From Bacteroidia bacterium (GTDB lineage Bacteria > Bacteroidota > Bacteroidia > 2-12-FULL-35-15), in contig JAURXZ010000049.1 of the NCBI GenBank assembly GCA_030654175.1, positions 218,334 to 282,333 of the forward strand: 64,000 bases of DNA, read 5' to 3'. The notes under the pieces are model-generated. The model did no database searches. It was not told where the DNA came from and saw only the letters and a list, made by a program, of their open reading frames with translations. Of the stretch, positions 21,066 through 50,200 are shown in pieces. Numbering within the stretch: the first letter of the stretch is position 1; each line of letters starts with the position of its first letter. A program made the translations under genes and the position numbers.

Positions 21066-24000
21066 TTAATACCTCAACAGCGTAAGGTCACCACTTAAGT
21101 TATAAATTTTTCCATTGTTAAGTTTGATATACGCCTTCCATACATATACATCCTGTTGACATATTTCCCCTCTGTAATAACCATCCCAGCCCGTTTTTAT
21201 ATCCAATGATTCGAAAATTTGTTCTCCCCAGCGGTTAAACATTTCTAATTTGTATTCAATCACCCCATAAGTGTATGGAAAAAATACATCATTACTTAGA
21301 TCAAACAGCGTATAAGTTCCGCCTGATGATCCATTTGGGTCCGGGGTAAATACATTTGGAAAAATAACATTTGCATTTGTTATTACATCTAAATATGCTG
21401 TATCAAGACATCCGTGCTGTGATGTAGCAATAAGCTGAACCTGGAAAGTACCAGATAGTGTATATACATATTCAGGATTTACTGCCGTTGAAGTGCCGCC
21501 TTCTCCAAAACTCCATTCATATGAATTTGCACCTACTGATTGATTATCACAAACCAAAACATCGTAAGGGATCAGCAGATCACTTGAGTTAACCGCAAAT
21601 GCTGCAACAGGAGCAGGGTAGGACGTAATAGTTAATGGTGTTATTCCATTATCTGAGGTGCATCCTCCATCTGTATTAACAGTTAATGTTGCAAAAAAAG
21701 TACCTGATTGATCAAAGTAATGGAAAGGATTCTGTTCTGTTGATGATGTTCCATCTCCAAAATTCCAGTACCACGAAGTGATTGGGTCATTTATATTTCC
21801 GGTAATAGAAATATCGGTGAATTGAACCCCTCCAAGTGCGCATAATGCAGTAGGACCGGCTGATACAACAACTGTAGGCTGAGGATTAAAAAGAACATCA
21901 ACCGAATCGGTAACCGACAAGCCGCAAACATTACTAACAGTTACAATATAAGTGGTAGGCTGTCCTGGAGTGGCCAGATAAACACCCGGTCCTGTTCCTA
22001 AATTATTATTCCACTGATAAGTTAAAGGACCTGTTGTACCAGAGGTTTCAACATATACAGCAGTAATTTGACCGGGGCAAATAGGAGATGTAGCTATTGC
22101 CTGAACATTTGCTCCGGTTAAAGTATATACTATAGCACTAACAGTTGAAGGTGTTCCAGGACATCCGACCTGATCATAAGCTACCACTGTATAGGTAGTA
22201 TTACTTGTAGGTGTAATGTTTAATGAACCCGCATTGTTGATACCGGTTGGCTGCCATACAAAATAATAACTACCTGTTCCTCCACTCGCAATCGCTGTGA
22301 CTGTACCTGACTGACCAAGACAAATTGTATCATTTGCTCCTGCTGTTGTTATTAATTTTTGAGGCTGGGTAAGCACTACACTGCTGGTTGAAATACAGCC
22401 ATTCGTATCCGTAACTGTTACAGTATATGAACCTGCAATAAGATCATTTACTGTACTTCCCGTTTGCGCTATAGCTGGTGCCGACCAGGAATAAGAATAA
22501 GGTATAACGCCTCCCGAGGCAACCACTGTTGCACTTCCTGTACCATCAAAACATGCAGGATTCTTAATCACGCTTGCAGAAGAAGAAAGTACAGTTGGTT
22601 CTGAAATTGCAGCTGATATTGATTTAGTACAATTATTTTGATCCGTTACATTCACAGTATAGCTTCCTGAACTCAGGTTAGCAGCTGTTGAAGTACTTGC
22701 ACTGTTTGGTGCCCATGAATACGTATATAGCGGGCCGGTACCGCCTGTAGGAGAAACACTTATTTCTCCGGTATTCCCTCCATTACACAACACATTGGTT
22801 ATCGAAGAAATAGAAACATCAACAGGTGTTGGTTCAGTTATAATTATCGTATCTGAAGTTTGACAGCCAATAGCATCAGTCACATTTACAGTATAGGTAC
22901 CAATTGAAAGAGAGCTAGCCGTTAAACTATTACCACCGGCCGGTGACCAGTTTATTGCATATGGAGCTGTTCCCTGAGTAATATTTATGGTGGTAGAACC
23001 ATTATTTCCTCCATAACACGAAACATTATTTATCGATGAAACAGCCACAGAAGGGCTGGCTATATTGACTAAATTAGCAGATAAGGGGAATATACAATTT
23101 AAAGAATCTGTTATCTGCACATTGTATGTTCCCGGAGGTAAATTATTAATTCCGGCAGTTGTTGAAGATCCCCATGTCCATAAATAAGTGTATGGAAAAG
23201 CCCCTCCGGATAGTTGTGATGAAACAGAGCCATTTGATAAACCACATGAAGGATTTATATATGCCAGTGTACCATTGATAGCCGGTGGTTGTGCTATATT
23301 CACCGATTTATTTATTTTACAGTTATTGCTATCAGTAACCAAAATTGTGTAATTTCCTGGAGCGAGTCCGAAAGCAGTATCATTTATTGACACAGCAGGG
23401 GTCCAAAGATAAGAATAAGAAGGTGTACCACCGCTGGTATTTATGCTTGCTGTACCGTTTGAACCTCCATAGCAACTTGTTGAAGACCCTGTGCTAATTG
23501 CTGAAAGTGCTTGTAAGGGTTCCGTAATTGTTACTGAACTTGTGGTATTACAACTTTTAAAATCAGTTACTGTTACCGTATATGTGCCCGATACAAGTCC
23601 TGTTCCTGTTGGTCCATTGCCCCCTAAAGGCAACCAGTTATAATTATAGGTAAGACTACCTCCGCTGGCTGTAACTGTTGCATTTCCATTGTTTTCCCCC
23701 ACGCAGGTTACATTACTTGAAGATGAAATGACAGAGGTCAATTGAGTAGGCTCTGTAATTACAACAGGCAACGTTTTTAAACAACTTTTACTATCTGTCA
23801 CCTCAACGGTATAAGTGCTGGCAATAAGATTTAGTATTGTTGTTCCAGCAATTCCACCCGGCTGCCATTGATAGGTATAACCGGAGGTACCGCCAGATGC
23901 AATAGCTGATGCGGTTCCATTACTGCCTCCAAAACAACTCACATTGCTCTTGGTTACACTAATGAATAGAGGATTAGGTTCGGTTATTTCAGGGCTGATT

Positions 24001-27000
24001 GCCGGGATAGATTGACATAGATTATTATCTGTTACAGTAACCGTATAGGTACCCGGTAATAAGCCTGTTGCAATAGCATTGGTTCCTCCTGTTGGAGACC
24101 ATAAATAGGTGAATGGTCCGGCACCTCCGGTAACACTCACAGTAGCTGTACCATTTGAACCATTGTTACAACTAACATTGGTAGTAGCAGTAACAGTTGC
24201 TACCGGACTTGGATTATCATTTACCGTTACTCCTTTTGTGGAAATACATCCATTTGCGTCAGTCACTGTTATTGTATATGGTCCCGAAAATAAGGTAGTT
24301 GCAGATGCGTTGGTTCCTCCGGAAGGTGACCACTGATATAAAAAAGCTCCGGTTCCTCCTGCTGCAACAACAGAAGCCTGCCCGTTTGCAAGGCTGCAAT
24401 TTGAATTAATACTATCTGTAGTTAATACAACCAGTGTGGGTTGAGTAACAGAAATAGAATTTGAAAAAGTACATCCATTAAAGTCAGTTATTGATACTGT
24501 ATAAGTGCCGATAGCAACATTTGAATATACCGGACCATTGCTATTTCCCGGCATCCAGCTATAGTTATATGGAGCGGTTCCTCCCGCAGCAGCGGCAGAA
24601 ACAGAACCATCCATTCCTCCATAACAGCTAACGGGCGAAAAAGATAAAGGCGCAGAAAGCGGAGCAGCAGGTTGAGTAATGGTAAAAGGCAATGTTTCTA
24701 TACAACTATTGAGATCTGTAACCTGTATGGTATAAGTACTTGCTACAAGATTAGTTATGCTTGCTCCTGTTGTTCCACTTGGCAACCATTGATAGGTATA
24801 TCCTGAAGTGCCGCCAGATGCAATGGCAGAGGCCGTTCCATTGGTTCCACCAAAACAACTCACATTGGTTTTGGTTACCGTAATTAAAATAGGAGAGGGC
24901 TGGGTAATTTCAGGGCTGATTGCCGGGATAGATTGACATAGATTATTATCTGTTACAGTAACCGTATAGGTACCCGGTAATAAGCCGGTTGCCGTTGCAT
25001 TGGTTCCGCCCGCTGGAGACCATGAGTAGGTGAATGGTCCTGCACCTCCTGCAACGCTTACAGTAGCTGTACCATTAGAACCTGTATAACAGCTTATATT
25101 AGTAGTGGAAGTAACAGTTGCTACCGGACTTGGATTATCATTTACCGTTACCCCTTTTGCTGAAATACATCCATTTGCGTCAGTCACTGTTATTGTATAC
25201 GGTCCCGAAAATAAGGTAGTTGCAGATGCATTGGTTCCTCCTGAAGGTGACCACTGATACAAATAAGCTCCTGTTCCGCCAGATGCAACAACAGAAGCCT
25301 GTCCGTTTGCAAGACTGCAATTAGAATTGATACTATCAGTACTAAGTAATAATGGAGTTGGTTGAGTAATAGAAATAGAATCTGTAAAGGCACAACCTTT
25401 TATGTCGGTAACTGTTAGCGTATAGGTTCCGGAGCTAAGATTAGAAATAGTAGAGCCGTTAAAATTTCCAGGCATCCAATTATAGTCGTATGGAGTAGTT
25501 CCACCGCTTGCGGCTGCAGAAACCGAACCATCCCCTCCTCCAAAGCAACTATTGGGTGTAAAAGTTAAAGAAGCTGAAAGTGCCGCACTTGGCTGGGCAA
25601 TTGTAAAAGGCATTGTTTGAACACAGAGATTGGAATCTGTAACCTCAATGGTATATGTAGTTGCTGAAAGATTGCTTACATTTAAACCTGTTGTTCCACC
25701 CGGTAACCATTGATAGGTAAAACCGGGAGTACCACCGGATGCAACAACTGATGCTGTTCCATCATTGCCCCCAAAACAACTCACAGTGCTTTTTGTGATC
25801 GTTATTAAAATTGGCGGTGGCTCCAAAATATCAGGACTTGTTGTTGCAAGGGATTGACAGCCATTTGAACCGGTAACAGTAACAGTGTAAGTGCCTGCTG
25901 TTAAGCCTGTCGCAGTTGAATCAGTGCCGCCATTTGGCATCCAGGAGTATGTAAAAGGACCTACCCCTCCTGAAGTTCCAACTTTTGCAGAGCCGGTTGC
26001 TCCTCCAAAACATTTTACATTAACTACTGAAAAAATGGTTGCAACTGGCGCTGAATTTTCGTTCACATTTCCAAATTGCGTTGATATACATCCCGTAGAA
26101 TCAGTTACTATAACTGTATAAGCGCCAGATACCAAACTATCGGCTATTGCATTGGTTCCGCCTGAAGGCGACCAGAAATAAGAATAAGGGGCATTTCCTC
26201 CGGAAACAGAAACTGAACTTTCTCCATTTGGCTGGCCGCAATCAGAATTAACACTAGAAGTAACAAGAATTATTTTTGCAGGTTGGATAACAGTAACCGA
26301 ATTAGTGCTTGTACATCCTTTTGAATCCGTTGCAGTTACCGTATAAGTTCCGGCAGTACGATTTGGAATGGTTTGTCCTGATAAGCTTCCCGGCATCCAG
26401 GTATATGTGTATGAGCTTGTGCCATTAACTCCTGTAGCAGTTACAGAACCATTGTTCCCACCGAAGCAACTTACAGGTAAAGAAGATGCAGAAACACTCA
26501 GAGGAGCTGTTGGTTGAGTAATGGTAACAGAATTTATCACAATACATCCTCTTGAATCTGTGCTTGTAACCGTATAAGATCCGGCTACTAAATTTGTTTT
26601 CGAAGATGTTGTTGCTCCTCCTGGTGCCCATAAATAGGAATAGTTTGGCGTTCCTCCTGAAGTAGTTGCTAATACCGAACCATTATTCCCTCCAAAACAA
26701 CTTACATTTATTTGTGCTGTGAAATTTATTGCTAATGGCGCAGGTTCAGCTATTATTGCATTGGATGTTGCAGAACATCCTTTGGCATCAGTAACTGTTA
26801 AGGTATAAGTTCCGCTTGATAGATTGTTAATGCTTATGGATGTTAATGCCCCTGGTTGCCACAAATAAGTATAACCGGCTGTTCCTCCCGAGGGTATTGC
26901 TGTTGCAGTTCCGTTATTGAGGTAATTACAGGTTTCATTTACTTTCGAAGTGCTTGCTGAAAGTAATAAAGGTTGTGTTATTACAACAGAATTGGTTGCA

Positions 27001-30000
27001 ATACATCCCTGTGCATCGGTTATGGTAACTGAATAAGTCCCTGCTGTTAAATTTGTTTTTGTAGCAGTGGTTGTTCCTCCCGATGCCCATAAATAGGTAT
27101 ATCCGGAAGTCCCTCCCGAAGGGCTTGCTGTTACTGCACCATTATTTCCTGCAAAACAACTTACATTTGTTTGTGCTGTGAAACTGATCACTATTGGTGC
27201 AGGTTGAGTGATTATAGCGTTGGCAATTGATGTACATCCATTCGCATCAGTAACTGTTAAGGTATATGTTCCGGAAGATAAATTAGATATAGTACCTGTT
27301 GTTTGCAAACCCGGTTGCCACAAATAGGTATAGCCACCTGTACCTCCTGATGCAACTGCAGTTGCAGTACCATTGTTTAAGTAATTACAGGTTTCGTTAG
27401 TAACGGAAGTGCTTGCTAAAACTATAGCAGGCTGTGTTATAATAACTGAATTTGTTTCAACACATCCCAAATTATCAGTTACAGTAACACTATATGTGCC
27501 GGCAGTCAAATTGGATACCGATGCAGTTGTTGCGCCTCCAAAGGACCATAAATAAGAATAGTTTGGTGTTCCTCCTGCAGGGCTTGCAGTTACAGTTCCA
27601 TCACTGCCTCCAAAGCAGCTAACATTTGTTTGTGCAGTGAAACTGATTACAACTGGTGCCGGTTCAGCAATTATTGCATTGGTAGTTGCAATACATCCTT
27701 TCGCATCGGTAACCGTTAATGTATATGTTCCGCTAGATAGATTGTTTATGCTGTTGGACGTTAAACTTCCCGGTTGCCACAAATAAGTATAGCCTGATGT
27801 TCCTCCTGAAACAATTGCTGTTGCCGTTCCGTCATTGCTGTAATTACATGTTTCATTCGTTGTTGAAGTGCTTGCTGAAAGTAATAAAGGTTGTGTTATT
27901 ACAACAGAATTGGTTGCAACACATCCCTGTGCATCGGTTATGGTAACTGAATAAGTCCCTGCCGTTAAATTTGTTTTTGTAGCAGTGGTTGTTCCTCCCG
28001 ATGCCCATAAATAGGTATAACCGGAGGTCCCTCCCGAAGGACTTGCTGTTACTGCACCATTATTTCCTGCAAAACAGCTTACATTTGTTTGTGCTGTGAA
28101 ACTGATCACTATTGGTGCAGGTTGAGTGATTATTGCATTGGCAATTGCGGTACATCCATTAGAGTCAGTCACTGTTAAGGTATACGTTCCGGAAGATAAA
28201 TTAGAAATGAAAGCAGTTGTTTGTAAGCCGGGTTGCCACAAGTAGGTATAATTACCCGTACCTCCGGAAGAGATTGCCGTTGCAGTACCATTATTCAGAT
28301 AATTACAGGTTTCATTAATAACGGAAGTGCTTGCTAAAACTACGGTTGGCTGTGTTATAACAGCTGAATTTGTTTCAACACATCCTAAATTATCTGTAAC
28401 TGTTACTGTATAGGTACCCGCTGTTAAATTAGAAACCGAAGCGGTTGTAGCTCCTCCCGATGCCCATAAATAGCTGTAGTTTGGTGTTCCTCCTGAAGGG
28501 CTGGCTGTTAAAGTACCATTGCTGCCTGCAAAACAACTTACATGTGAAGGGGTGAAATTTATTGTTATTGGTGCCGGTTCAGCTATTATTGCATTGGTAA
28601 TTGCAGTACATCCCTTCGAATCAGTAACTGTTAACGTATATGTTCCGCTAGATAGATTGTTTATGCTGATGGTTGTTAATGCCCCTGGTTGCCACAAATA
28701 AGTATAGCCTGATGTTCCTCCTGAAACAATTGCTGTTGCCGTTCCGTCATTGCTGTAATTACAGGTTTCATTCGTTGTTGAAGTGCTTGCTGAAAGTAAT
28801 AAAGGTTGTGTTATTACAACAGAATTGGTTGCTATACATCCTTGTGCATCGGTTACGGTAACTGAATAAGTTCCTGCCGTTAAATTTGTTTTTGTAGCAG
28901 TGGTTGTTCCTCCCGATGCCCATAAATAGGTATAACCGGAGGTCCCTCCCGAAGGACTTGCTGTTACTACTCCATTATTTCCTGCAAAACAACTGACATT
29001 TGTTTGTGCTGTGAAACTGATCACTATTGGTGCAGGTTGAGTGATTATTGCATTGGCAATTGCTGTACATCCATTCGAATCAGTCACTGTTAAAGTATAC
29101 GTTCCTGAAGATAAATTAGATATAGTACCTGTTGTTTGCAAACCCGGTTGCCACAAATAGGTATAACTACCTGTACCTCCTGATGCAACTGCAGTTGCAG
29201 TACCATTGTTTAAGTAATTACAGGTTTCGTTAGTAACGGAAGTGCTTGCTAAAACTATGGTTGGCTGGGTTATAACAGCTGAATTTGTTTCAACACATCC
29301 TAAATTATCTGTTACTGTTAATGTATATGTACCCGCTGTTAAATTAGAAACCGAAGCTGTCGTTGCTCCTCCAGATGCCCATAAATAGCTGTAGTTTGGA
29401 GTTCCTCCTGCAGGGCTTGCTGTTAAAATACCATTGCTGCCTGCAAAACAACTTACATGTGTAGGGGTGAAGTTTATTGTTAGTGGTGCTGGTTCAGCAA
29501 TTATTGCATTGGTAGTTGCAATACATCCTTTCGAATCAGTAACTGTTAACGTATATGTTCCGCTTGACAGGTTATTTATACCTATGGATGTTAAAGCTCC
29601 AGGCATCCACAAATAAGTATAGCCTGTTGTTCCCCCGGCAACAACTGCTGTTGCGGTTCCGTCATTGCTGTAATTACAGGTTTCATTCGTTGTTGAAGTG
29701 CTTGCTGAAAGTAATAAAGGTTGTGTTATCACAACGGAATTGGTTGCTGTACATCCCTGTGCATCGGTTACGGTAACTGAATAAGTTCCTGCCGTTAAAT
29801 TTGTTTTAGTTGCTGTAGTTGTTCCTCCCGGTGCCCACAAATAGGTGTATCCGGAAGTACCTCCCGAAGGACTTGCGGTTACTGCTCCATCATTTCCTGC
29901 AAAACAGCTTACATTTGTTTGTGCTGTGAAACTGATCACTATTGGCGCAGGTTCAGTGATTATAGGATTGGCAATTGCTGTACATCCATTCGAATCAGTC

Positions 30001-33000
30001 ACTGTTAAAGTATACGTTCCGGAAGATAAATTAGAAATGTTAGCAGTTGTTTGTAAGCCGGGTTGCCATAAATAGGTATAACTACCGGCTCCTCCTGAAG
30101 AAACAGATGTTGAAGTACCATTATTTGAGTAGCTACAAGTTTCATTCGTAATTGTTGTGCTTGTGGTAAGAAGTGTTGGTTGTGTTATAGTGGCTGTATT
30201 AGTGGTAACACATCCTTTCGAATCTGTAACAGTTGTTGTAAAGCTTTGAGAGCTGAGATTTGAAATTTGTGCTGTTGTTGCACCATTGCTCCATAAATAG
30301 GTATAATTAGGCGTGCCTCCTACAGGGCTTGCAGTAACAGTGCCATCAGTCCCTGCAAAACAACTTACATTTATCTGGCTAATGAAATTTATTGCTAAAA
30401 GTGCAGGTTCAGCAACTGTTGCAAATGCAATGGCTGTGCATCCCTTCAAATCAGTCGAAGTTAAAGTATAGGTCCCGCTTGATAAATTGTTTATATTCAT
30501 GGTTGTTAAAGCTCCGGGTTGCCACAAATAGGTATATCCGGGAGTCCCTCCTGAAGCAACAGCTGTTGCTGTTCCGTTATTCAGATAATTACAGGTTTCA
30601 TCGGTGCTTGTTGTGCTTGTAATAACAGCAGTTGGCTGACCTATTGAAACGGAATTTGATAATAAACATCCCAAATTATCAGTAATGGTTAAGGAAAAAG
30701 TACCGGCTTGTAAACCCGTAGCATTTGGAGAACTCGCTCCCGAACTCCAATTATAAGTATAAGGTGCATTTCCTCCCGATACTGTTGAACTCGCTATTCC
30801 ATCATTCCCGTTAAAGCAACTTACATCGGTTGGGGTAAGTGATATTACAATTGGTGCAGATTGATTGATGGTATAAGGCGTTGTCAGCTGACAGGAATTT
30901 GAATCGCTTACCGTTATTGTATAGGTTCCTACAGGCTGACTGCTTATTGATGATGTTGTTTGATTTCCCGGCTGCCACAGATAGGTATAAGGAGCAATAC
31001 CACCTGTTGGAGTTATAGATATGGAGCCGCTGCTTTGGCCTGAACAGGCTATATGTGTGATTGATGAAGCAAGTTGAACCGGGGGAGGCTGAGTTATAGT
31101 AACAGGGTTTGTTGAAGTACATCCAATACCATTTGTAATGGTAACGCTATAAGTACCAATGGCTAAGTTAACAGCAGTTATAGTTGATTGTGCAGGTGAT
31201 GTATTCCAGGAATAAGTATAAGGAGGTGTACCGCCAGTAATTCCCACTGTAGCGGTACCATTAGTGCCTCCGAAGCAGCTTACAGGTGTTGAAGTAAGAG
31301 TTACGGTTCCTGCAAATCCTACATAATTAATTTTAATAGTATCATAAGCAGCAGGGCAGGAGCCGTTCCCGGTTGTGGTCAATAGTAAATTTACAAAACC
31401 CGCTGTTAATTCAGCAGCAGTAGGAGAATAGGTTACACCGGAAAGTGTTGTATTATTCGGACCGAATGTTCCTCCACCACCCGACCAGATACCACCACTT
31501 GCACCGGCAACAGAAGCATTTAAAGTGGTGATAGGAATTTGATTACAAATTGTTTGATCGGGACCTGCATTAGCGGAAATAGCAACTGAATAAGAGGTAA
31601 CTGTTACAGTGGCATAAGCCGGAGGACAGCCTGATACATCAGAAATTCGAACTGTATAGGTTCCATTTCCAACAAGAATGCTTTGTGCCGGATTAACGCT
31701 GTTCCATAAATAACTATATGGCGGGGTACCCCCGGTTCCGTTAGCCGTTAGCATTGTGGAGGTCTGCCCCATACAAATTGTGGGGTTTTGAGGAACAATG
31801 GTTACGCCAAGAGTGAAATTAAAAATAACCCTTACCGTATCACAGACATTTGCTGCATTACACGCAGCAGACTGGCCACAAATTTGGTAATCAACAAAAG
31901 GTGGAGCTCCGATTTGACCTGTAGCTGTGGGGCTTAAACAACCTGTGGTACATGATAAGTAACTGTTATAAGCACCCAAAGCACCCGGATATACTGAGTT
32001 CCATGTAACAGTAGCCGGAGTATAACCTGTGGCTGTCATTGTACTCGTACATCCTTGGTTTACAATAATGTCAGTTCCGGCAAAAGGAGGAGGTGGTTGA
32101 GGGCAATTCACTACATTGAATTGAAAATCTCTGATTGTTTCTCCTATGTAAACCCCATTTCGGTATTCTTTTACGACCACACCTACCACAAATTGGCCAA
32201 GTGTGGCGGCCATTCCGGTTAACAATCCTGTGTATGGATTAAGATTGAGCGGGGCTCCACCAAGTGGATTGGTGGCAGAATATCCCGGCTGCCAAACAAT
32301 TGGGGTAAACGAAGCCGTATTCCCGGAAAAGGTAGGATCTAAGGGGCCTCCTATTGCATTATCACCATTATAGGGTGTGTAAAAAGAATATACTAATGAA
32401 TCTCCATCAGCATCGGTTGCGGCATGATTAAAAGTAAAGGTCTGGCCAACACATACAAAAATAGGTGGAAACAGATTGAAAACGGGATCACTGTTAGGTA
32501 TAAAATCATTACAGGAAACAACCACATTATCGAATCGGTATATTTCACTGTTTGGAGAATTAATATCATAATGAACCCTGATCACTATTTCAATTGTGCT
32601 GCCTGCTATTCCTGTGGCACTTGCATTTGCACTGGTGAAATCATCTCTTATAAAGCCATTCGTGGAAAACGCAGTAAGTGGCCCACCGTTCAGCCTGTAA
32701 TACACAAATATTGAATCATTAGCGTCTAAGGTTCCGGTTTCTGATAAATTTACACTTAAATTAACGGAAGGGCAGGAGGATATTGGTATTAATTGAGAGG
32801 TCCAGATTTTCTGAGCGTTGTTTGCACCCGTTGTTTCAAAAAGATTATTATTTACCCGTGCTGTGGCCGGGGCAGGATATCCTGCAACATTAGCGATACT
32901 CCATGCTGTAGCTCCGTTATCAACTATTGTATTATTAGCTAAAGTAAGATCCTCTGCCCAAATAACTGAATTTCCCGGAATGTATGCATAAAAACTTGAA

Positions 33001-34079: not shown

Positions 34080-37000
34080 CTAATACCTCAGAAGCGTTAC
34101 ATCTCCACTTTTATGAAACATTTTTCCATTATTGAGTTTAACGTATGCTTTCCATACATAAACATCTTGTGAACATATAGCTCCTCTGTAATAACCATCC
34201 CAACCTTGTTTAATGTCTAAAGATTCGAAAATTTCTTCGCCCCAGCGATTAAAAATTTCTATTTTAAACTCAATCACCCCGGAACTGTAAGGGAAAAAAA
34301 CATCATTGTTGAGTACATTTAAATCATAAGTTCCACCTTGTGTACCCTCTGGGTTAGGGGTGAAAACATTCGGAAAAATAACATCGGCATCTGTTGTAAC
34401 TTCGGTATAGGTGGTATCGGAACACCCGTATTGGTTCATCGCTATTAGCTGGATCTGGAAAACACCTACAGCCGTATATACATATTGGGGGTTAAAAGAT
34501 GTTGAAGTTCCGCCATCTCCAAAATTCCACAAATACGAGTTCGCACTTATTGATTGGTTGTTGCATGTTAATACATCATATGGAAGATCAAGAATGGTTG
34601 AGTTGACCGAAAATGCTGCTGTAGGGATCGGGTGTGCATCAATTGTTAATGGTGCTGAAGAATTATTTGATGTGCATCCTCCGGAAGTACTTACTGTTAA
34701 TGTAACAATATAAGAGCCCGGTTGGTTATAAGTATGAACAGGATCTTCTTCTATTGAGGTTGTTCCATCGCCAAAGTTCCATTCCCACATAGTGATTGGA
34801 TCATCTGTATTTCCGGTAACAGAATTATCAAAAAATGGCATAGACCCGGGAACGCACAACGAATTTGCATCAGATGTCAGCGAAAGGGTGGGCTGTGGGT
34901 TAAATAGAACAACAGCGGAATCGGTAATTGATAAACCGCAACTATTACTAACCGTTACAACATAGGTGGTAGGCTGCAAAAGTGTTAGTAAAAATGCTCC
35001 TGTTCCTGTTCCTAAATTATTATTCCACAGATATGTTAAAGGCCCTGTTGATCCTGATGTTTCAACATATACGGTAGAATTTTGGCCGGGGCAGATAGGA
35101 GAGGTACCCATTGCCTGAACATTTGAAGCGGTCAGATTATATACAATAGCAGTTACAGTTTCGGGAGTTCCGGGGCATCCAATTTCATCAAAAGCAACTA
35201 CCGTATACGTTGTAGTGGTTGTTGGTGTAATAGGTAATGTTCCGGCAGTGATGGCACCAGATGGCAGCCATGCGTAATAATAATTTCCGGCTCCGCCTAC
35301 TGCCGTTGCCGATATACTTCCTGTTTGCCCAAAACATAACGTATCATTTGTTCCTGCTTGTGTGATTACTTGTAAAGGTTGTTTTATTATCACATTACTG
35401 GTTGTAAAACAACCGTTTGTATCGGTAACTGTGACTGTATAGGAGGCTGCACTCAGATCGTTTAATACATTTCCTGTTTGCCCTGTAGCAGGAGCTGACC
35501 ATGAATAACTATAAGGTAAAACTCCTCCGGATGCAAGTACTGCGGCACTACCGGATCCACCATAACAGGTAGCATGAATTACAGTATCTATAGTGGATGA
35601 AAGTGGTGTGGGTTCTGTAATGGTAGCAGATATTGATTTTGGACAATTATTCTGATCCATTACATTTACAGTATATGTTCCGATACTAAGACCATCAGCC
35701 GTAGAAGAAGTTGAGCCCCCAGGTGCCCATAAATAAGTATAAAGAGGCCCTGTACCTCCTGTAGGAGCAACAGATATAGATCCGGTACTTCCTCCATTAC
35801 ATAAAACATCTGTTATGGAAGAAATAGAAACATCAATAACTGTTGGTTCTCCTATTGTCAAGCTATCTATTGTCTGGCATCCAATGGCATCCGTTACACT
35901 CATAACATAAGTTCCGGCAGATAATGCCGAAGCAGTTAAACTATTCCCACCTGAAGGTGACCAGCTGATTATATATGGTGCTGTTCCCTGAGTGATATTT
36001 ACGGTTGCTGAAGCATCATTTCCACCAAAACAGGAAACATTGTTTATAGAAGAAACAGCAATAATTGCGTTAGGTATAGTGGTAAGATTGGCTGATAAAG
36101 ATTTGGTGCAACCGGAATCATCGGTTACTGTTAAATTATAAGTTCCCGTTGCTAAACCACTTATTCCGGAAGTGGTAGCTGAACCTGGTGACCATAAATA
36201 GGTATATGGGAATGAACCACCTGATAGTTGCGATGCAATAGAACCATTTGATAAACCGCAGGAAGGATTTACAGTTACAAGTGTGCCGCTTAATTCTGAG
36301 GGTTGAGCAACACTAACCGAAACATTTGCCTCACATCCTTTACTATCTGTCACTAAAATGGCATAATTGCCCGGAGAAAGGCCTGAAGCGGTGTCATTTG
36401 TTGATACAGGAGGGGTCCATAGATAAGAATATATTGGTGTCCCACCATTTGTATTTATTCCTGCGGTGCCATTTGTGCCTCCAAAGCAACTTGTAGAATA
36501 TCCTGTTCCTGTTGCCAAAAGAGCTTGTGAGGGTTGAGTGATAGTAACAGAATCCATACTTACACAATTATTAAAATCAGTTACTGTTATAGTATATGTG
36601 CCAGCCGATAACCCTGTTCCCACAGGACCGTTACCTCCCAAAGGCATCCAGTTATAAGTATAACTTATGGTACCTCCGCTAACTGTTGTTGTTGCTGTTC
36701 CATCATTTCCTCCGTTGCAGTTAACATCGGCAAAAGATGAAATTGCAGCAGTCAATTGAGCCGGCTCAGTGATTACAACAGGTAATGTTTGAACACAGCT
36801 ATTGGTGTCAGTTACTTGTATGGTATATGTATTTGCAGAAAGATTAGTTATGCTTGTGCCTGTAGTTCCGCCAGGCAACCATAAGTAGGAATATCCGGGA
36901 GTACCGCTTGAGGCGATAGCAGATGCAGTTCCATCAGTATCTCCAAAGCAGGTTGTATTGGTTTGGGTTACGGTAATTAAAATTGGAAATGGTTGAGTTA

Positions 37001-40000
37001 TTTCCGGACTTGTAACAGGTTCCGATTGGCATAAATTGGTATCTGTAACAGTAACGGTATAGGTACCCGGTAACAAACCCGTTGCAATTGAATCAGTGAT
37101 ACTGCCAGGCATCCAGGAAAAGGTGAATGGGCCTGCTCCTGAAGCACTAACCGTTGCAGTACCATCAGAACCAGCATTACAAGATACATTGGTTGTTGAA
37201 AAGATGGTGGCTACCGGGCTTGCATTATCATTTACGGTTATTTCTTTTGTTGAAGTACAACCATTTCCATCAGTTACAGTAACAGTATATGTACCGGAAA
37301 GAAGACTTGTTGCAATAGCATCTGTTCCACCGGATGGTGACCAAAGATACGTATACGCTCCTGTTCCACCTGATGCAATAACCGATGCCTGGCCATTAGC
37401 CATACTGCAATTGGAATTGACACTATCCGTTACAAGCACAATATAAGCAGGTTCAGTTACGGTAATAGAATCTATAAAAGTACATCCTTTAAGGTCAGTT
37501 ATTGATACTGTGTAAGATCCTGTTGTAACATTAGAAAAATTAGGTCCATTGCCATTTCCGGGCATCCAGGTGTAATTGTATGGTGCGGTTCCACCGGTTG
37601 CAGTTGCAGATACAGAACCATTTGTGCCTCCAGCGCAGGTTCCGGGAGTAAAAGTTAGGGGTGCAGAAAGTGCTGCCAATGGTTCAGAAATAGTAAAAGG
37701 TTCCGCTTTTACACAACTATTGGTATCAGTAACCTGTATAGTATATGTTGTTGCCGAAAGATTTGTCAGGCTGGTACCTGTTGTTCCGCTTGGTAACCAT
37801 AGATAAGTATAACCAGGTGTACTACCCGAAGCTATTGCTGAGGCTGTTCCATTAGTACCACCAAAACAACTTACAGAGCCCTTTGTAATACTAATAAATA
37901 TCGGAGAAGGTTGGGTTATTTGAGGACTTATAACAGGAATTGACTGGCATAAATTAACATCTGTAACTGTTAACGTATAGGTTCCGGGAAGTAATCCAGT
38001 TGCTATTGAATCTGTTATTCCTCCAGGCATCCAGGAGTATGTGAATGGTCCGTTACCGCTTGAAATACTAAGGGTGGCTGTACCATCAGAACCTGTATTA
38101 CAAGTTACATTGGTTGTTGAAGATACCGTAGCTACAGGACTTGCGTTATCATTAACTGTTACCCCTTTTGTTGAAATACAGTTATTCCCGTCAGTTACTG
38201 TAATTGTATATCCTCCTGCAAGCAGAGCTGAAGCAGAAGCATTGGTGCTTCCTGAAGGCGACCATAGATAGGTGTAAGATCCCTGGCCTCCTGCAGCAAC
38301 CACAGATGCTTGTCCGTTTGGCAAGCTGCAATTGGAATTGATACTATCGGTGGTAAGTACTATTTTTGCAGGTTGAGTAACTGCAATGAAGTCGGTGAAG
38401 GTACATCCTTTTAAATCAGTTACTGTAACGGTATAGGTACCTGCTATAAGATTCGAAATTGTTTGTCCGTTAAAATTTCCCGGCATCCAATTATAGTTAT
38501 AGGGAGACGTTCCACCGGCAGCGGTTGCAGTCACAGAACCATTATCACCTCCAAAACAGCTAACAGGTGTGGAAGATAAAGGCGCTGATAAAACTACAGG
38601 TGTTTGGGTAATTGTAAAAGGCATGGTTTGCACACAGCTATTGGTGTCTGTAACTTGTATAGTATAGGTTGTTGCGGAAAGATTAGCTACACTTAACCCC
38701 GTTGTTCCGCCAGGCAACCATTGATAGGTATAACCGGGATTACTACCGGATGCAATTGCAGATGCAGTTCCATCATTCCCGCCAAAACAACTTACCGTAG
38801 TTTTTGTAACTGTTATTAATATTGGGGTAGGCTGCATAATATCAGGACTTGTAGTAGCAAGGGATTTACAGCCATTAGATCCTGTAACGGTTACGGTATA
38901 GGTACCTGCAGTCAACCCTGTTGCAATTGAATCAGTGCCACCCGAAGGGCTCCAGGAGAAAGTAAAAGGAGAAATACCTCCTGAGGTTCCAACATGTGCT
39001 GAACCATTAGTCCCTCCATTACATGTCACATTAGTTACCCCAAAAATACTTGCTACCGGTGCTGAATTTTCATTCACATTTCCAAATTGTGATTCAGTAC
39101 ATCCTACAGAGTCCGTTACTAAAACAGTATAAGCGCCTGTTACCAAGCCGGCTGCTGTTGCATTTGTTCCTCCTGATGGTGACCATAGGTAGGTATAAGG
39201 ATCATTTCCCCCTGATACCGAAACTGTAGATTGTCCATTGGGTAACCCGCAATCGGAATTAACACTTGTAGCCGTGAGTATTATTTTTGCAGGTTGAGTT
39301 ACTGTTGTTGGAGCCGTGGACACACATCCCAATGAATCGGTGGCTGTAACTGTATAGGTTCCGGCAGCAAGGTTCGTAATGTTTTGTCCGCTCAGGTTTC
39401 CGGGCATCCAGGTATAAGTATAGGGGCCTGTACCATCAGTTGCGGAAGAAGATACAGAACCGTTCAATGATCCATAACATGATGCCGGTAACGATGCCGC
39501 AGAAACAGCCAATGGAGCAAGTGGTTGGGTAATAGTAACAGAATTAGTGGTGGTACACAATTTTGAATCGGTAATTGTAATAGTGTAGGTACCAGCTGTT
39601 AAATTTGTTTTTGATGCGGTGGTTGTTCCACCCGGTGTCCATAAATAGGTGTAGTTAGGTGTTCCACCGGATGGGCTTGCTACCACAAGTGCGTCATTCC
39701 CTGCAAAGCAGCTCACATTTGCCTGTGATGCGAAACTTACGGCTAATACTGCCGGTTCAGCAATTATTGCATTGGCTGTTTCCGTACATCCTTTGGAATC
39801 AGTGATGGTTAATGTATAAGTTCCGCTTGATAAATTATTAATGCTTATGGATGTGAGTGCTCCGGGTTGCCACAAATAAGTATACCCTGAAGTACCTCCT
39901 GAAGGCACTGCTGTGGCTGTTCCATCATTCAGGGAATTACAGCTTTCATTGGTAACTGTTGTGGATGCAGCCAGTACAGCAGGTTGTGTTATCGTAACAA

Positions 40001-43000
40001 ATTTAGTGGCGGTGCAGCCCACATTATCAGTAACAGTAACTGTATATGTTCCTGCCGCTAAATTTGAGATGGTTGCTGAAGTTTCTCCCCCCGGTGCCCA
40101 TAAATAGTTATAAATGGGGGTTCCACCCGTAGGGCTTGCTGTTACAGTACCATCACTGCCAGCAAAACAACTGACGTTAGTTTGTGCTGTGAAGTTAATA
40201 GCTAATGTAATGGGTTCAGCAATTATCGCATTTGTGGTTCCTTTACATCCTTTCAAATCAGTTACTGTTAAGGTATAGGTTCCGGCTGACAGATCAGTTA
40301 TTGTACTTGTTGTTTGTAAATCCGGTTTCCATAAATATGTGTAACCAGGGTTACCTCCGGAAGCGCCACCTGTTGCGGTTCCGTCATTCAGATAATTACA
40401 GGTTTCGTTAGTAATTGTTGATGTCGCTATTACCTGTGTAGGTTGTGTAATTATAACTGAATTAGTACTAAAACATCCATTTTTATCAGTGATAGTAATA
40501 GAATAGGTTCCTGCCGTTAAATTTGTTCTGGATTCAGAACTTCCTCCTCCTGATGCCCATAAATAGCTGTAGTTTGGAGTACCTCCTGCAGGGCTTGCTG
40601 TTACCGCCCCATCGCTTCCTCCAAAACAGGTTACATTTACCTGTTCGTTGAAACTTATTACTATTGCATTGGGTTCAGTTATTATTGGATTGACTGTAAC
40701 AATACATCCTTTCGAATCCGTAACCGTTAAAGTAAAAGTTCCACTTGATAAACCGGTAACAGAAGCAGTTGTTAGTGCTCCGGGTTGCCATAAATAGGTA
40801 AATCCGGGTGTACCTCCCTTTGGAATAGCTGAAGCCGTTCCATTATTAAGGTAATTACAGGTTTCATTGGTAACCGTTGTACTTACTGTAAATGGCTCAG
40901 GCTGTGTAATCGTAACTGTGTTTAAAAATGTACATCCTTGCGAATCAGTAATGGTGACTTTATGTTTGCCTGCAATTAAATTCGTTGCTGTAGGTGTGGT
41001 TGCTCCACTTGGGGTCCAGGAATAAGTATAGCCCGAAGTTCCTCCGGATGCATTTGCTGTTACTGAACCATCACTTCCTCCAAAACAGCTTACATTTGTT
41101 TGTGCACTGAAACTTATAGCTAACGGTGAAGGTTCAGTGATCAATGCAGTGGCAGTTGCTGTGCAGTTATTCAAATCAGTGACTGTTACAGTATAAGTTC
41201 CTGCTGCTAAACCAGATACCGTTCCTGTTGTTTGTAAACTGGGTTTCCAAAAATAGGTATAGCCGGCAGTTCCTCCAGAAGCAGTTGCGGTTGCGGTACC
41301 ATTATTTTTATAATCACACGTTTCATTGGTACTTGTTGCACTTGCGGTGAGAAGCACTGGCTGCGTTATAATCACTGAATTAGTGGTAAAGCAACCTCTT
41401 GAATCAGTTACAGTAACAGTGTATGTTCCGGCTGTTAAATTTGATTTAGAAGCAGTAATGCCTCCGCCTCCTGCCCATAAATAGGTGTAAGGTGCGGTCC
41501 CGCCTGCAGGGCTTGCTGTTACAGTACCATCACCTCCGCCAAAACAACTTACATTTTTCTGACTGATAAAATTTATTGTTAAAGGTTGTGGTTCAGTAAC
41601 TGTTGCAAAAGCGGTTCCTGTGCATAATTTCAAATCAGTTACCGTTAAGGTATAGATTCCGCTGGATAAATTGTTTATAATTGCGGATGTCAGTGATCCG
41701 GGTTGCCAAAGATATGTATAACCAGGATTACCACCTGAAGCAGCGGCTGTGGCAGTTCCATTATTGGAATAACTGCAGGTTTCATTGGTGTTTGTTGTAC
41801 TTGCCGTAATTGCAGTTGGTTGAGTTATGGTAACGGAATTAGTTTTCAAACATCCTAAATTATCAGTAACGGTTAAGGAAACTGGCCCTGCTGGTAAACC
41901 AGATGCATTTGGAGAGGTGGCTCCTGAACTCCAATTATAGGTATAGGGGGAGGTACCACCTGATACTGTTGAATTGGCAATTCCATTATTTCCATTAAAA
42001 CAACTTACAGGGGTTGTTGAGAATACTATGGCTATTGGATCAGGTTGAGTGATCGTAAATGCTGTTGTTTTTTGACATCCTTTTGCATCTATTTCAAGTA
42101 ACGTATATACACCAGCCAACTGATTGTTAATGGATGATGTTGTTTGACTTCCAGGTTGCCACAAATAAGTATAAGGTCCCGTTCCACCGGTGGGGCTTGT
42201 TGATATGGAGCCATTATTGCCTCCTGAGCAGGATACCTGAGTAATTGAAGAAGTAACATTTAGTGGTAAGGGCTGAGTAATGATAACAGAATTTTGAGAG
42301 GTACATCCAATACCATCTTTAATAGTTACTGCATACGTACCAATGGCCAGGTTTGTAGCATTTGGACCAGATTGTGCCGGTGCAGTATTCCAGGCATATG
42401 TATACGGTGGAGTGCCAAGGGTTATATTAATTGTTGCAGTGCCATCATTGCCCCCAAAACAGGAAGTAGGAGTAGGAGTAATTGCTACAAGCCCTGAAAA
42501 TCCTACATAATTAATTCTAATAGTATCTGTATCACCCGGACAAGATCCATTTCCTGTTGAAGTTAATATTAAATTAACAAATCCAGCCGCTAATTCAGCT
42601 GGACTGGGAGTGTAAGCTGCCGAAAGTGTTGTATTATCAGGGCTGAAAACGCCTGCTCCACCTGACCAAATGCCCGTTTCATACTGGGCTGCACTACCAC
42701 TGCTATTAAGATCAACATCAATTTCACCATCTAAGGTTACAATCGGATTTTGATTACATACTGTTATATCATCACCTGCATCAGCTTCAATTGGATCGTC
42801 AAAAGAAACAACTGTTACTGTAGCATAAGCCGGTGGGCAAGTGGAAGCATCCGTAAGTTTAACGGTGTAAATTCCGTTTCCAACAAGAATACTTTGTGCG
42901 GAATTTTGATTATTCCATAAATAGGTATATGGGGGAGTACCTCCAGAACCATTTGCGGTAATTGTTGTGGAGGTTTGGCCAAAACAAATAATTGGATTTG

Positions 43001-44106: not shown

Positions 44107-44213
44107 TGAAAGGGGATTTGTTAGCGTATATTGGGCTTAAGCTAAAATTATACAATCCAACTCGGTAGTATCAATAATCAAACCCCAGGTTCGACTAATA
44201 TCCAAAATCTAAT
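44107..44213. repeat. Duplicated 3' flank, copy B (after paralogue 3)
   Basis: This is the partner of 33916-34021. It keeps the same order of shared blocks, including ATTGGGCT and the GGTTCGACT / ATATCCAAAA end, with small insertions and deletions. Confidence 0.65.
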
Positions 44214-44276
44214 ACGCAAAATCTAACATCTAAAATCTAAAATCCAACATCCAACATCCAACATCCAACATCCAAA
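44214..44276. repeat. Short tandem repeats: ATCTAAAATC-like units, then four exact CCAACAT heptamers
   Basis: From 44214 loose ten-base units (AAATCTAACATC, TAAAATCTAA) grade into four exact heptamers CCAACAT at 44244-44271, ending just before the stop codon of paralogue 3. A looser version of the same pattern follows paralogue 2 at 34033-34085. Confidence 0.85.
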
Positions 44277-44279
44277 CAT

Positions 44280-47200
44280 CTAATACCTAAGAAGCGTAAC
44301 ATCCCCGTTTTTATAAAATACTTTTCCGTTGTTGAGTTTAACGTAGGCTTTAAAAACATATACGTCCTGCTGACATATAACTCCTCTGTAATACCCATCC
44401 CAACCTTTTTTGATATCTAATGATTCGAAAATTTCTTCACCCCAGCGATTAAAAATTTCTATTTTAAAATCAATTACTCCTGAACTGTAAGGGAAAAATA
44501 TATCATTACTGAGGTTATCCAAAGCGTATATTCCTCCCTGGCTGCCGTTTGGATTTGGAGTAAACACATTAGGGAAAATAACATCCGCATCTGCTGTAAC
44601 TTCTGCAAACGCAGTATCAGTACATCCATATTGAGACATGGCAATAAGTTGAATTTTGAAAACACCTACAGATGAATATACATACTGAGGGTTAACGAGT
44701 GTTGATGTCCCATTATCTCCAAAACTCCAACTATAGGTGCTTGCATTTATTGATTGATTGGTACACATTAAAACATCATAAGGAAGCTCAAGATTAGTTG
44801 AACTTACCGAAAATGCTGAAGTAGGAATAGGATGAGCAATTATCATTAATGGCCCCGAAAAATTATTTGATGTACATCCTCGTGCGGTGGTCACCGTTAA
44901 GGAAACGAGGTAAGTCCCAGGTTGGCTATAATTATGAATAGGGTCCTCTTCTGCGGAGCTACTACCATCTCCAAAGTTCCATTCCCACGAAGTGATTGGA
45001 TCATCGGTATTTCCTGTTATAGAATTATCGAAAAATGGCAATGAGCCAGGCACGCATAATGCATTTGTGGCCGATGTTAAAGCAATTGCAGGTTGCGGAT
45101 TAAAAAGAATATTTACTGAATCAGTAACAGATAAACCGCACATAGTATTAACTGTAACAATATAAGTTGTGGGTTGCGCAGGCGTTACAAGATAAACTCC
45201 TGTTCCTGTACCTAAATTATTATTCCACTGATACGTTAAAGGTCCTGTTGATCCTGTTGTTTCAACATGAATGGCAGCGCTTTGGCCCGGGCAGATAGGG
45301 GAGGTACCTATTGCATACACATTATCAGGGGTTAAATTATATACGATGGCAGAAACAGTTTCAGGAGCACCCGGACATCCGATTTGATCATAAGCAACTA
45401 CAGTATAGGTAATATCATTTGTTGGTGTAATAGGCAATGTTCCTGTTGTGATAGCACCTGAAGGCTGCCATGCATAATAATAATAACCACCTGCTCCTCC
45501 TACTGCCGTTGCACTAACACTTCCTGACTGACCAAGACATAATGTATCATTTTCTCCGCTCGATGTTATTACTTCCAATGGTTCTTTTATTATCAAATTG
45601 ATACTTGTAACGCAACCTGTTGTATCGGTAATAGTAACCGTATAAGAACCTGCAACAAGTCCGTTTGCTTCATTTCCGGTTTGTCCAACAGCAGGTGCTG
45701 ACCACGAATAATTATAAGGGATTGCCCCTCCGGATGCAAGTATTGTAGCACTTCCAGGTCCACCATAGCAACTGGCATGAATTAAAGTATCTACAGAAGC
45801 AGATAGCAATGCAGGCTCTGTAATAGTGGCAGAAATTGATTTAAGACAATTGTTTTGGTCCGTTACATTCACTGTATATGTTCCTATTGAAAGATTTGCC
45901 GCTGTTGATGAATCTGACATAACAGGCGTCCAGGAATAAGTATAAAGTGGACCTGTACCTCCTGTTGCTGCAACAGTTATAGAACCTGTATTTCCTCCGT
46001 TACATAAAACATCTGTCAAGGAAGAAATAGAAACATCAACCGGTGCAGGCTCTGTGATGGTAAGGCTATCAATTGTCAGACATCCTGAAGCATCGGTTAC
46101 ATTTATAGTATAGGTTCCAACAGATAAAATAGATGCCGTTAAACCATTACCTCCTGAAGGAGTCCATTTTATTGCATAAGGTGGCGTTCCTTGTGTAATA
46201 TTAATTGTTGCCGAACCATCATTTCCTCCAAAACAGGAAACATTGTTTATTGATGAAACCGTTATAGCAGGGGCAGGCATAACCGTTAGGTTGGCTGACA
46301 AGGATTTGACGCAATTGGATGCGTCAGTAACCAGTAAATTATATACTCCCATTCCTAAACCAGTAATTCCTGAGGTTGTAGAAGCCCCATCTGACCATAA
46401 ATAGGTATATGGCAATAGACCTCCCGATAATTGTGATGAGATAGATCCATTCGATAAACCGCAGGAAGGGTTTGCCGAAACCAACGAGCCACTTATTTCG
46501 GAAGGTTCTGTTATGCTGATTGCAAGGTTTGTTTCACAGCCGTTATTATCTGCAATTAAAACAGTGTAATTGCCCGAAGAAAGACCATAGGCTGTATCAT
46601 TCAATGATACAGAAGGGTTCCATTGGTAGCTATAATTAGTTGTTCCGCCAACAGGATGAATACCAGCTGTACCATTTGATGCCCCAAAGCAGGTGATGTT
46701 GGAAACCGTGTTGGTTGCTGATAAAGCCTGGCTTGGTTGAATGATAGATGCAGAATCTTGCTTAACACAACCATTAAAGTCTGTTACTGTTAATGTAAAT
46801 GTTCCATTTGATAAGCCTGTTCCTAAAGGGCCGTTACCGCCCAAAGGCAACCAGTTATAAGTATACCCCATGGTGCCTCCGCTAACAGTTGCGGTTGCTG
46901 TCCCGTCACTTAAACCATGACAGCTGACATTTGTTGTTGATGAAATACCAAGGTTCAATTCAGGGGCCTCATTAATTAATACAGGCAGTGTTTGAATGCA
47001 GCTATTGGTGTCTGTAACCTCTATTGTATAGGTTTGAGCAGAGAGATTTGAGATTTGAGAAGAAGTGCCCCCATTGCTCCACAAATAGGTATAACCAGGC
47101 GCACCTCCCGAAGCAATGGCAGATGCAGTCCCGTCATTACCGCCAAAACAAGCCACAGCGGTTTTTGAAACACTTATTAAAAGTGCGGGAGGTTCTGTAA

Positions 47201-50200
47201 TACCCGGAATTATTGTAGCAAGCGATTGACAGTTATTGGATCCTGTTACAGTAACGGTGTAAGAGCCTGCCGTAAAACCTGTGGCAATTGAATCATTACC
47301 CCCTGACGGCATCCAGGAGTATGTAAAAGGGCCAACACCGCCAATGGTTCCAACCTTCGCAGAGCCGTTTGATCCTCCGTTGCAACTTACGTTTACCACA
47401 GAATAAATAGTTAATAGGGGGGCTGAATTTTCACCCACATTTCCAAATTGTGTGGACGTACACCCGTTTAAATCAGTTACAGTTACCGTATATGCACCAG
47501 ATACCAATCCCGTGACTGCAGCATTTGTTCCACCGGTTGGTGACCATAAATAATTGAATGGGAAATTGCCTCCTGATACGATTGAAACAGAAGTTTGTCC
47601 ATTAGGCTGACCACAGTCAGAGTTGACGCTTGTGGTGCTAAGCACTATTTGATCGGGCTGATTTATAGAAACAGAATTAGTATCTGTACATCCTTTTGAA
47701 TCGGTTGCTGTTACTGTATAGGTACCTGCTGCAAGGTTTGGAATATTTTGTACAGCTAAACTTTCAGGCATCCAGAAATAAGTATAAGGTCCGGTTCCAT
47801 TGCTGGCTGCAGAAGAAACGGACCCATTCGTTCCTCCATAACAGGTTGCCGGTAAGGATGAGGTGGAAACTGATAAAGGAGCTGATGGTTGAGAAATGGT
47901 AACGGAATCAGTTGCGGTGCATCCTTTCGAATCAGTAACAATAACCGTATAAGTTCCTGCGATCAGGTTACTTAGGGTGCTTGATGTATTTCCTCCGGGA
48001 GTCCATAAATACGTATAGTTTGGAACTCCTCCGGAAGGATTTGCTGTTACACATCCATTGTTCCCTCCAAAACAACTAACATCTATCTGGCTGATATAAT
48101 TTATAGATAGTGGCGAAAGTTCCTCAATTGTTGCAAACGAAGTTGCAGTGCATCCTGAAAGGTCTGTGGTGGTTAAAGTATAAGTTCCTCCCGATAAATT
48201 ATTTATAGAAGTGGTCGTTTGTCCTCCTGGTTGCCAAACATAAGTATAACCCGGAGTCCCTCCTGAAGTAGCGGTGGTTGCTGTTCCATTATTCAGATAA
48301 TTACAGGTTGCATTTGTGACCGTTGCTGTTGGCACTAAAGCTGAGGGCTGTGTAATAATTGTAGAATTTGATCCGGTGCATCCTGAAATGTCAGTAACGG
48401 ATAAGGTAAACGTCCCGGCTTGCAAACCGGATGCATTAGGCGATGTGGCTCCCGAACTCCAGTTATAGGTATAAGGAGAAGTACCACCTGATACTGTTGA
48501 ATTGGCTGAACCATTATTTTCATTGAAACAAGTAACCGCTGTAGGTGCTAGTAATACTGTTACTGGTAAAGGTTGATCGATTGTAAATGTTGAGGTTTTC
48601 TGACAGGTTTTTGAATCCGTTACCGTTATCGAATAGGTTTGAGATGTAAGATTTGAGATTTGAGAGGTAGTGTTTCCATTGCTCCATAAATAAGTATAAG
48701 GGCTTGTTCCGCCTGTTGCTGTTACAGAAATCGCGCCATTGCTTCCTCCTGCACAGGTTACATTGGTAACTGAAGAAGATAGCGCAAGGGGTAAAGGTTG
48801 ACTAATAGTAACCGAATTAGATGAGGTGCATCCAATTCCATTTGTAATTGTTACAGAATAACTACCTACAGCAAGATTAGATACTGTTGGTGTTGATTGT
48901 GCCGGTGCAGTGTTCCAGGAGTATGTATAAGGAGTAGTGCCATTTGAAATACTCACCGTTGCAGTTGCATTGTTCCCTCCAAAGCAGCTTACAGGAGTTT
49001 GCGTAAAAGAAACAATTCCATTAAAGCCCACATAATTAATTCTGACAATATCAGTGCCGGGTGCACAGCTACCATTGCCTGTTGTGGTTAAAGTAAGATC
49101 AACAAATCCATTGGTTAATTCAGCGGCAGTAGGAGAATAGTTCACACCTGAAAGTGTTGTATTGGTGGGGCTAAATGTTCCACCTCCACCCGACCAAATT
49201 CCGCCAATGGCTCCTATAATAGAACCACTTAAGGTAGTAATTGGATTTTGTTTGCAAACCGTTTTATCCGCACCCGCATTAGCAGAAATAGCAACAGAAT
49301 AGGAGGTAACAGTTGCTGTAGAGTATGCAGGGGGACATCCGGGATATGAAATTTTAACGGTATATACTCCGCTTCCTACCACTATACTTTGAGCAGGATT
49401 AACATTATTCCATAAGTAGGAATAGGGAGCTACACCACCAGTCCCGGTAGCAGTGAGTGTTGTGGAAGTTTGACCAAAACAGAGCGCTACATTACTCCCG
49501 GCATTGGCGATTACAGGGGCGCAACACTTCTGAAAAACAATATCGTCTAATCCAAAATCATTTCCAGCCGGGTTGGTGTTTTGATTTTTTATACAAATAT
49601 TAATTGTAGTATTTGTTCCTGAATTCCATGTAGCGGAAAAATTAACCCATGTGTTTGTTGATGAAGGAGCATTAAAAACGGGTCCCAAAAGAACACCATT
49701 TGCCCAAAACTGTAATTTAGCCGGACTGCTCGGGTGAACAGAACAAACCCATGTTGAAAATTGATAAGTGCTGTTTGGATTAACTGAAATAGTTTGACAC
49801 CATACTGAAGAATTAGGTATTCCCTTCCCATTTACAATCATAAAATTCCCATTACCTGTTGTGTGATCGTGTCCTGAGAATGCTCCATGAAAGTAATTAG
49901 CATTTGTGCCTATGCCATAACGACCCTCAGGATAAAGGCAATTAGCCGAATTACAATACGAATAAGCGCTGGAAAACGATGTGTTGCCAGCGCTGAAATT
50001 TCCGTTAGCCACCAAATTTGTGCCGGAGGGAGATGTGCCGGAAGGACACTGGCCCTTTGACAAAAGTGATGAGAAAAATAAACCCAGGAACAGAAACAGA
50101 TAGAATAATGAAATAGGTAAATTGAAAAAAATCAGCTTGTGATCATACTGGAATAAGAGTGAGCGCAATCTGCTTTCCTTTGTTAAGAATTGTTTATAAA

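Follow-up and report, generated by a model that had tools for sequence, protein, structure and literature searches.

The 64,000-nucleotide window analysed here (G000:C34:218334-282333, from a Bacteroidia bacterium genome of 5.1 Mb in 51 contigs) carries five long reading frames on the − strand, P1–P5, which encode paralogous proteins of the SprB-repeat adhesin family. The repeats of this family are organised by a real quantum of four. Modules of ~76 amino acids (aa) are ordered into four-module super-repeats, or tetrads, of ~306 aa (0.92 kb), and the array reads L1, then zone 1 (L2-L3-A-B followed by more tetrads), then zone 2 (F-C-D-E, repeated), and finally T1-T6. In all 22 arrays with both zones whole, the core, which runs from L2 through the last E, contains a multiple of eight units (8, 16, 24, 32 or 40), and each zone opens with a lead tetrad that occurs once. 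An earlier sequence-only reading of this DNA had proposed that both expandable sites grow by four units at a time, and the 22 arrays support this.

The organisation is seen in full in P1 (21066..33446, − strand, 4126 aa), whose 39 units comprise L1, five zone-1 and three zone-2 tetrads, and T1-T6. On the same strand, the lead tetrad L2-L3-A-B of zone 1 (30150..31058, 303 aa) is followed by extra tetrads 2–5 of the form A-B-A-B (26478..30149), which measure 915, 915, 918 and 924 base pairs (bp) and share a mutual DNA identity of 81–90%. Zone 2 consists of the lead tetrad F-C-D-E (25560..26477, 918 bp) and two extra tetrads of 924 and 918 bp (23718..25559) with a DNA identity of 80%, and is followed by the constant units T1-T6 (22359..23717). 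The earlier reading gave 915–918 bp as the zone-1 period. Its 921 bp for zone 2 corresponds to the distance between the first two C-type units (residues 2401 and 2708); measured F to F, the tetrads there are 918, 924 and 918 bp. All 22 tetrads of P1–P5 are 302–308 aa (906–924 bp) long.

Units were counted at > 60 bits with a unit profile built from the family genes themselves, which gave 39 units in P1, 31 in P2, 15 in P3 and 23 in P4, in agreement with the sequence-only reading, as well as 15 in P5 and 15 in P7. P5 runs past the window edge, and its count refers to the gene completed with the adjoining contig sequence. P6 (4417 aa) and P7 (1976 aa) are further paralogues on the same contig, outside the window; the 47 units of P6 were counted between weak edge units. 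The proposed series of 15 + 4m units with even m therefore extends to P6 (47) and P7 (15), as well as to the relatives, where 15 of 15 whole-zone arrays obey 15 + 8k. Fifteen type profiles (L1-L3, A, B, F, C, D, E, T1-T6) agree with the pair counts p reported before (9, 5, 1, 3, 1 in P1–P5), but they were trained by position on six genes including these, so that the relatives provide the independent test. The oddness of p stands, but tetrads describe the arrays better than pairs added two at a time: p is odd because L2 and L3 make up the first half of a tetrad completed by the first A-B, as shown by zone 1 of the relatives G001, G013 and G017, which repeats L2-L3-A-B. P6 was typed as L1 L2 L3 A B L2 B L2 B (A B)x6 F C T2 E F B A B (F C D E)x3 T1-T6, in which some labels are near-tied. 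The F-B-A-B tetrad, which combines an F-type start with zone-1-like sequence, lies inside zone 2 in the P6-like genes (L061, L069, L009/L010) and is also found in L041.

Among the genomes searched, the genus, family and order of this organism comprise the same 36. A T3-T5 profile picked out 34 genes scoring above 230 bits, distributed over 17 of these genomes, the next score down being 193. Adding P10 and the cut array G008.C431 brought the number of typed arrays to 36, 14 of which are cut by contig ends; the 22 with both zones whole (7 from the window's own genome and 15 from relatives) were hand-picked for visible zones and include G008.C57a, whose T zone is cut. An 8-unit core is present in 11 of the 22, a 16-unit core in four (P4, G001.C89, G013.C29 and G029.C1), a 24-unit core in three (P2, G014.C5 and G017.C3), a 32-unit core in P1 only, and a 40-unit core in three (P6, G021.C693 and G018.C35). 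In the variable zones of these arrays, neither an even p nor a change of one or two units was found. The G007 array is divided between two contigs with an identical 99-base end; read as one, it has three + three tetrads, although one F unit scores only 36 bits. P10 (L013:2832-7112, own genome) is a diverged family member truncated at a contig end, with five B-like units followed by F C D E T1; it is compatible with an eight-unit core and was excluded from the counts. In a class sample of 395 genomes, T3-T5 matched at 1e-58 in seven genomes outside the genus, with more than 250 bits in two (G040 and G190), both cut by contig ends. Order searches around G040 (6 genomes) and G190 (7 genomes) gave no further members, and in a phylum sample of 395 genomes only the window's own genome matched, at 1e-62.

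The periodicity was examined by a lag test in which the unit order was shuffled 500 times, with the family cores trimmed to L2..E and the control arrays taken whole. The lag-4 z scores are 11.4 for P1, 9.0 for P2 and 4.4 for P4, and all odd lags are negative, so that the four-unit period is more than chance. Lag 4 is strongest in 9 of the 11 expanded cores (z 3.8–11.4) and, zone by zone, in 11 of the 14 zones tested. In G018.C35, lag 8 (z 6.2) is marginally better than lag 4 (6.0). Weaker lag-2 peaks in the cores of P1 (z 3.9), P2 and P6 reflect a pair sub-period within the tetrad. The 24 controls are arrays of other SprB-type genes (L036, a cut family member, was left out of 25), and their best lag is 1 in 16, 4 in three and another lag in five. 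The three with lag 4 best, L064 (G017.C5), L066 (G009.C3) and L075 (G026.C30), with z of 5.1, 4.1 and 2.5, have another architecture, and a tetrad period may be wider than the adhesin family of P1–P7. Two giant genes of yet another architecture, P8 and P9 (L012:1074-18074), carry runs of shorter single-type units of ~69 aa, with lag 1 as the best lag.

The individual positions within the tetrad are also recognisable. Of all other positional classes, the one closest to a given lead-tetrad position is its counterpart in the extra tetrads, in 8/8 cases. The reverse comparison, from extra to lead, holds in 6/8 because of the pair sub-period of zone 1, where positions 1 and 2 of the extras most resemble positions 3 and 4 within their own class. 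In a tree of zone-2 tetrads, all 22 first tetrads form one clade, with a support of 97 in the Shimodaira–Hasegawa-like approximate likelihood ratio test. In the zone-1 tree, the 22 first tetrads fall into one 28-row group together with six extras of G001, G013, G014 and G017, which are copies of the lead-tetrad type, and the A-B-A-B extras of P1, P2, P4, P6 and relatives are placed outside this group. The zone-1 and zone-2 tetrads may be copies of one ancestral tetrad; the class scores favour the unshifted register only slightly.

P1 differs from the other arrays in the age of its copies. Its zone-1 extras 2–5 form one clade (99) and its zone-2 extras 2 and 3 one pair (97), and its longest exact inter-unit matches reach 96 bases at lag 4 and 66 bases at lag 8 but do not exceed 23 at lags 1–3 and 5–7. 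The longest exact repeats of P2, P4 and P6 are 19–26 bases at any lag up to 8, and those of G017 and G014 lie within the same range. Taken together, the tree clades, the DNA identity and the long lag-4 and lag-8 matches indicate that tetrads of P1 were recently copied in register, whereas the other arrays appear to have reached their sizes earlier.

We consider it probable that the tetrad is a four-domain super-repeat passed on by descent and comparable in principle to that of titin, and that it has been duplicated and lost in register by homologous recombination. The stalk would be a string of small, beta-rich domains of ~76 aa in a super-repeat of four different domains, with two tetrad zones between the constant ends L1 and T1-T6 and an invariant lead tetrad in each zone, and its length would change through gain or loss of whole later tetrads. 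Units at the same position may recombine through unequal exchange, or slip during replication, and so give rise to the copies, since the longest matching stretches lie four units apart; out-of-register products would be rare, with unlike units matching poorly or misfolding. The tetrad number would then set the stalk length and hence the reach of the adhesin. This account takes in the observed architecture, the tetrad periodicity in both protein and DNA, the multiples of four in 22/22 whole cores and the copies in P1.

Several observations weigh against this account. Recent copies are found only in P1, the copying mechanism is not visible in P2, P4 and P6, and several orthologues have array sizes that look long established and not easily expanded. 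The best lag of G029.C1 is a weak lag 2 (z 2.2), with a lag-4 z of 1.3. One-unit changes, which are absent from the variable zones, may occur in the constant zone: G008.C258 (L093, ~residues 172–190 of the frame), a P1-like array, has lost the single unit T2 in frame, which is either a one-unit change or an assembly error in a genome of 790 contigs. In addition, the four-unit step in zone 2 and in P1 is forced by recombination between like units, i.e., by which units match, so that the quantum may mean nothing further. What this leaves over is zone 1, where two-unit steps would match by type and none is found in 22 arrays, and the total tetrad number, which is always even. Structure prediction failed, giving AlphaFold2 models of low confidence, and for the export route discussed below, the type B sorting profile TIGR04131 reaches only 22.9–33.2 bits in P1–P5, under the cut-off of 35 in 5/5.

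The leftover in zone 1 is what a structural explanation would address. If the tetrad were a functional or structural unit, e.g., a superhelix turn or a ligand-binding period, selection would remove arrays that are out of register or have unmatched zones, and zones that pair or fold on each other would have similar numbers. The two-unit sub-period of zone 1 is real, as the lag-2 peak of P1 demonstrates, yet no array has taken a two-unit step; moreover, P6-like arrays have retained 40-unit cores of 10 tetrads across three species. The tetrad numbers of the two zones are equal in 20/22 arrays by position, i.e., before and after the first F (exceptions P1 with 5,3 and G014 with 2,4), and in 18/22 by sequence type (exceptions P1 with 5,3 and three P6-like arrays with 6,4). 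A permutation over 8 or 7 self-chosen lineages gave 0.014 under either criterion; however, this test was post hoc and the lineages number only about seven or eight. With G014 coded as 3,3 and the P6-like genes as 5,5, n > 1 and q > 1 (the tetrad numbers of the two zones) change together in 5/5 independent pairs on well-supported branches (p = 0.0625; 7 pairs on all branches). The linkage between the zones is thus suggestive but statistically weak. Contact evidence is not provided by the AlphaFold2 models, which were uninformative for one zone-2 tetrad (10-row alignment, mean predicted local distance difference test score, pLDDT, 42.0; predicted template modelling score, pTM, 0.24) as well as for the eight-unit core of P3 (7-row alignment, mean pLDDT 37.1, pTM 0.20). 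Overall, we regard structural selection as unlikely. A specific form of it, in which the tetrads of zone 1 run alongside those of zone 2 in a folded-back or paired stalk that grows by one tetrad per zone in eight-domain steps, seems quite improbable: the constant multiple of eight in the core would follow from such growth, but equal zones are limited to 18 (type) or 20 (position) of the 22 arrays.

A few ancient gains and losses, widely inherited, could also mimic a rule. The extra tetrads of P2, P4, P1 and P6 are mutually as alike as the lead tetrads are, which implies that the size variation is largely old, and under the same coding the tail tree needs only 8 changes for n, for q, or for the pair. 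However, the recent in-gene tetrads of P1 and the sister tetrads within one gene in G014 zone 2 and G017 zone 1 show that later events also came in fours, and if arrays could take any number of units, it is unlikely that all eight changes would have preserved multiples of four by chance; common descent alone is therefore a rather improbable explanation. Collapse or expansion of repeats in whole super-repeats by the assembler is highly improbable. Many contigs of the relatives do stop inside arrays (14/36), and the two G007 contigs share their exact 99-base end, but the longest exact repeats (96 bases in P1, and far shorter in P2, P4, P6, G017 and G014) are short for collapse at ordinary read lengths, and the same sizes recur in separate assemblies, e.g., 47 units in G000, G018 and G021.

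The remaining family genes of the window lie on the − strand as well. P2 (34080..43703, 3207 aa) has three + three tetrads at 36729-42242; P3 (44280..50324 from stop to stop, with a listed open reading frame end of 50288) has one + one at 46938-48767; P4 (50569..59223, 2884 aa) has two + two at 53221-56883; and P5 (59706..64000, continuing past the window edge to 66656 in window-continued coordinates, 2316 aa) has one + one. A short tandem repeat of 7/14/21 bases lies at and beyond the 3′ end of P3, in the P3–P2 gap (window 44195-44283). These genes form a one-strand row in the order P6, PorE/OmpA-like gene, PorP/SprF gene, P5, P4, P3, P2, P1, and no carrier genes of their own were found between P1–P4. 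The PorP/SprF gene between P6 and P5 scores 240.4 bits with TIGR03519 (cut-off 90.55), and the SprF-like protein has two cysteines close to its C-terminus, as judged by eye, a motif described for SprF (PMC12635249). The PorE-like matches score 206.4 and 189.5 bits, under the cut-offs of 620 and 600, and end near profile positions 485/639 and 446/648. This locus (L009:10388-13133 of C34, between P6 and P5 and outside the window) thus contains a PorE/OmpA-like gene whose match lacks the end of the profile, followed by the PorP/SprF gene.

The Pfam scan for SprB repeats (PF13573, cut-off 28) covered P1 and P3 and gave 1046.6 bits over 40 stretches and 433.5 bits over 16 stretches, respectively; the two tetrads of P3 have 4 and 4 stretches and its T zone 6. 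The CHU_C profile (PF13585) scores 28.4 bits in P3 (cut-off 27) and 25.1 in P1, and the N-termini of P1, P2, P4 and P5 look hydrophobic by eye. The family genes probably encode giant outer-membrane-anchored SprB-repeat adhesins exported by the type IX secretion system (T9SS) as type B substrates. According to PMC9143113 and PMC12618676, PorP/SprF proteins serve as anchors of type B adhesins, in some cases together with PorE-like partners, and on that basis an anchored adhesin is the likely role here. A search of the tetrad profile against solved structures returned three matches below 0.001 over 49–62 positions, all to phage decoration or neck proteins, and a collagenase match at 0.71; these were read as a weak beta-domain resemblance and left unused.

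Compared with known systems, the family resembles SprB of Flavobacterium johnsoniae and other PF13573 proteins in its SprB repeat profile, which is far above the cut-off, but differs from them in that the repeats are ordered into two zones of four-domain super-repeats. The PorP/SprF-family gene in the adhesin row is shared with T9SS type B substrates, as described in PMC12618676 and PMC9143113. In PMC9143113, sprB/sprF occur without a porE-like neighbour and PorE-linked type B proteins are postulated to be non-mobile, whereas here a PorE-like gene adjoins the SprF-like gene. In the A-band of titin, same-position domains of the super-repeats show the greatest similarity, and duplication of super-repeats is the proposed way in which the chain lengthened (PMC10665226). 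The likeness lies in the string of small beta domains, the higher-order repeat and the greatest similarity between same-position domains; however, the super-repeat here has four domains vs. eleven, is bacterial and varies in number between paralogues, so that this is an analogy and no homology is claimed. As a general class, tandem-repeat adhesins vary in length by unequal recombination. The present family is similar in that in-register copy change alters length, but each copied piece comprises four unlike domains, such pieces occupy two separate zones, and array sizes appear stable in several orthologues. In a literature search, mostly at title level, no description of SprB-repeat proteins with a four-domain super-repeat was found.

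The giant adhesins of the SprB-repeat kind are generally described repeat by repeat, each repeat being one unit. For the complete arrays of the present family, the unit of growth appears to be the four-block rather than the single module. With a four-domain super-repeat made of a fixed lead and countable extra blocks, the length of the adhesin becomes a simple count, and one tetrad is a natural fragment for structural work. If matched growth of both zones were true, it would imply a folded or paired stalk.

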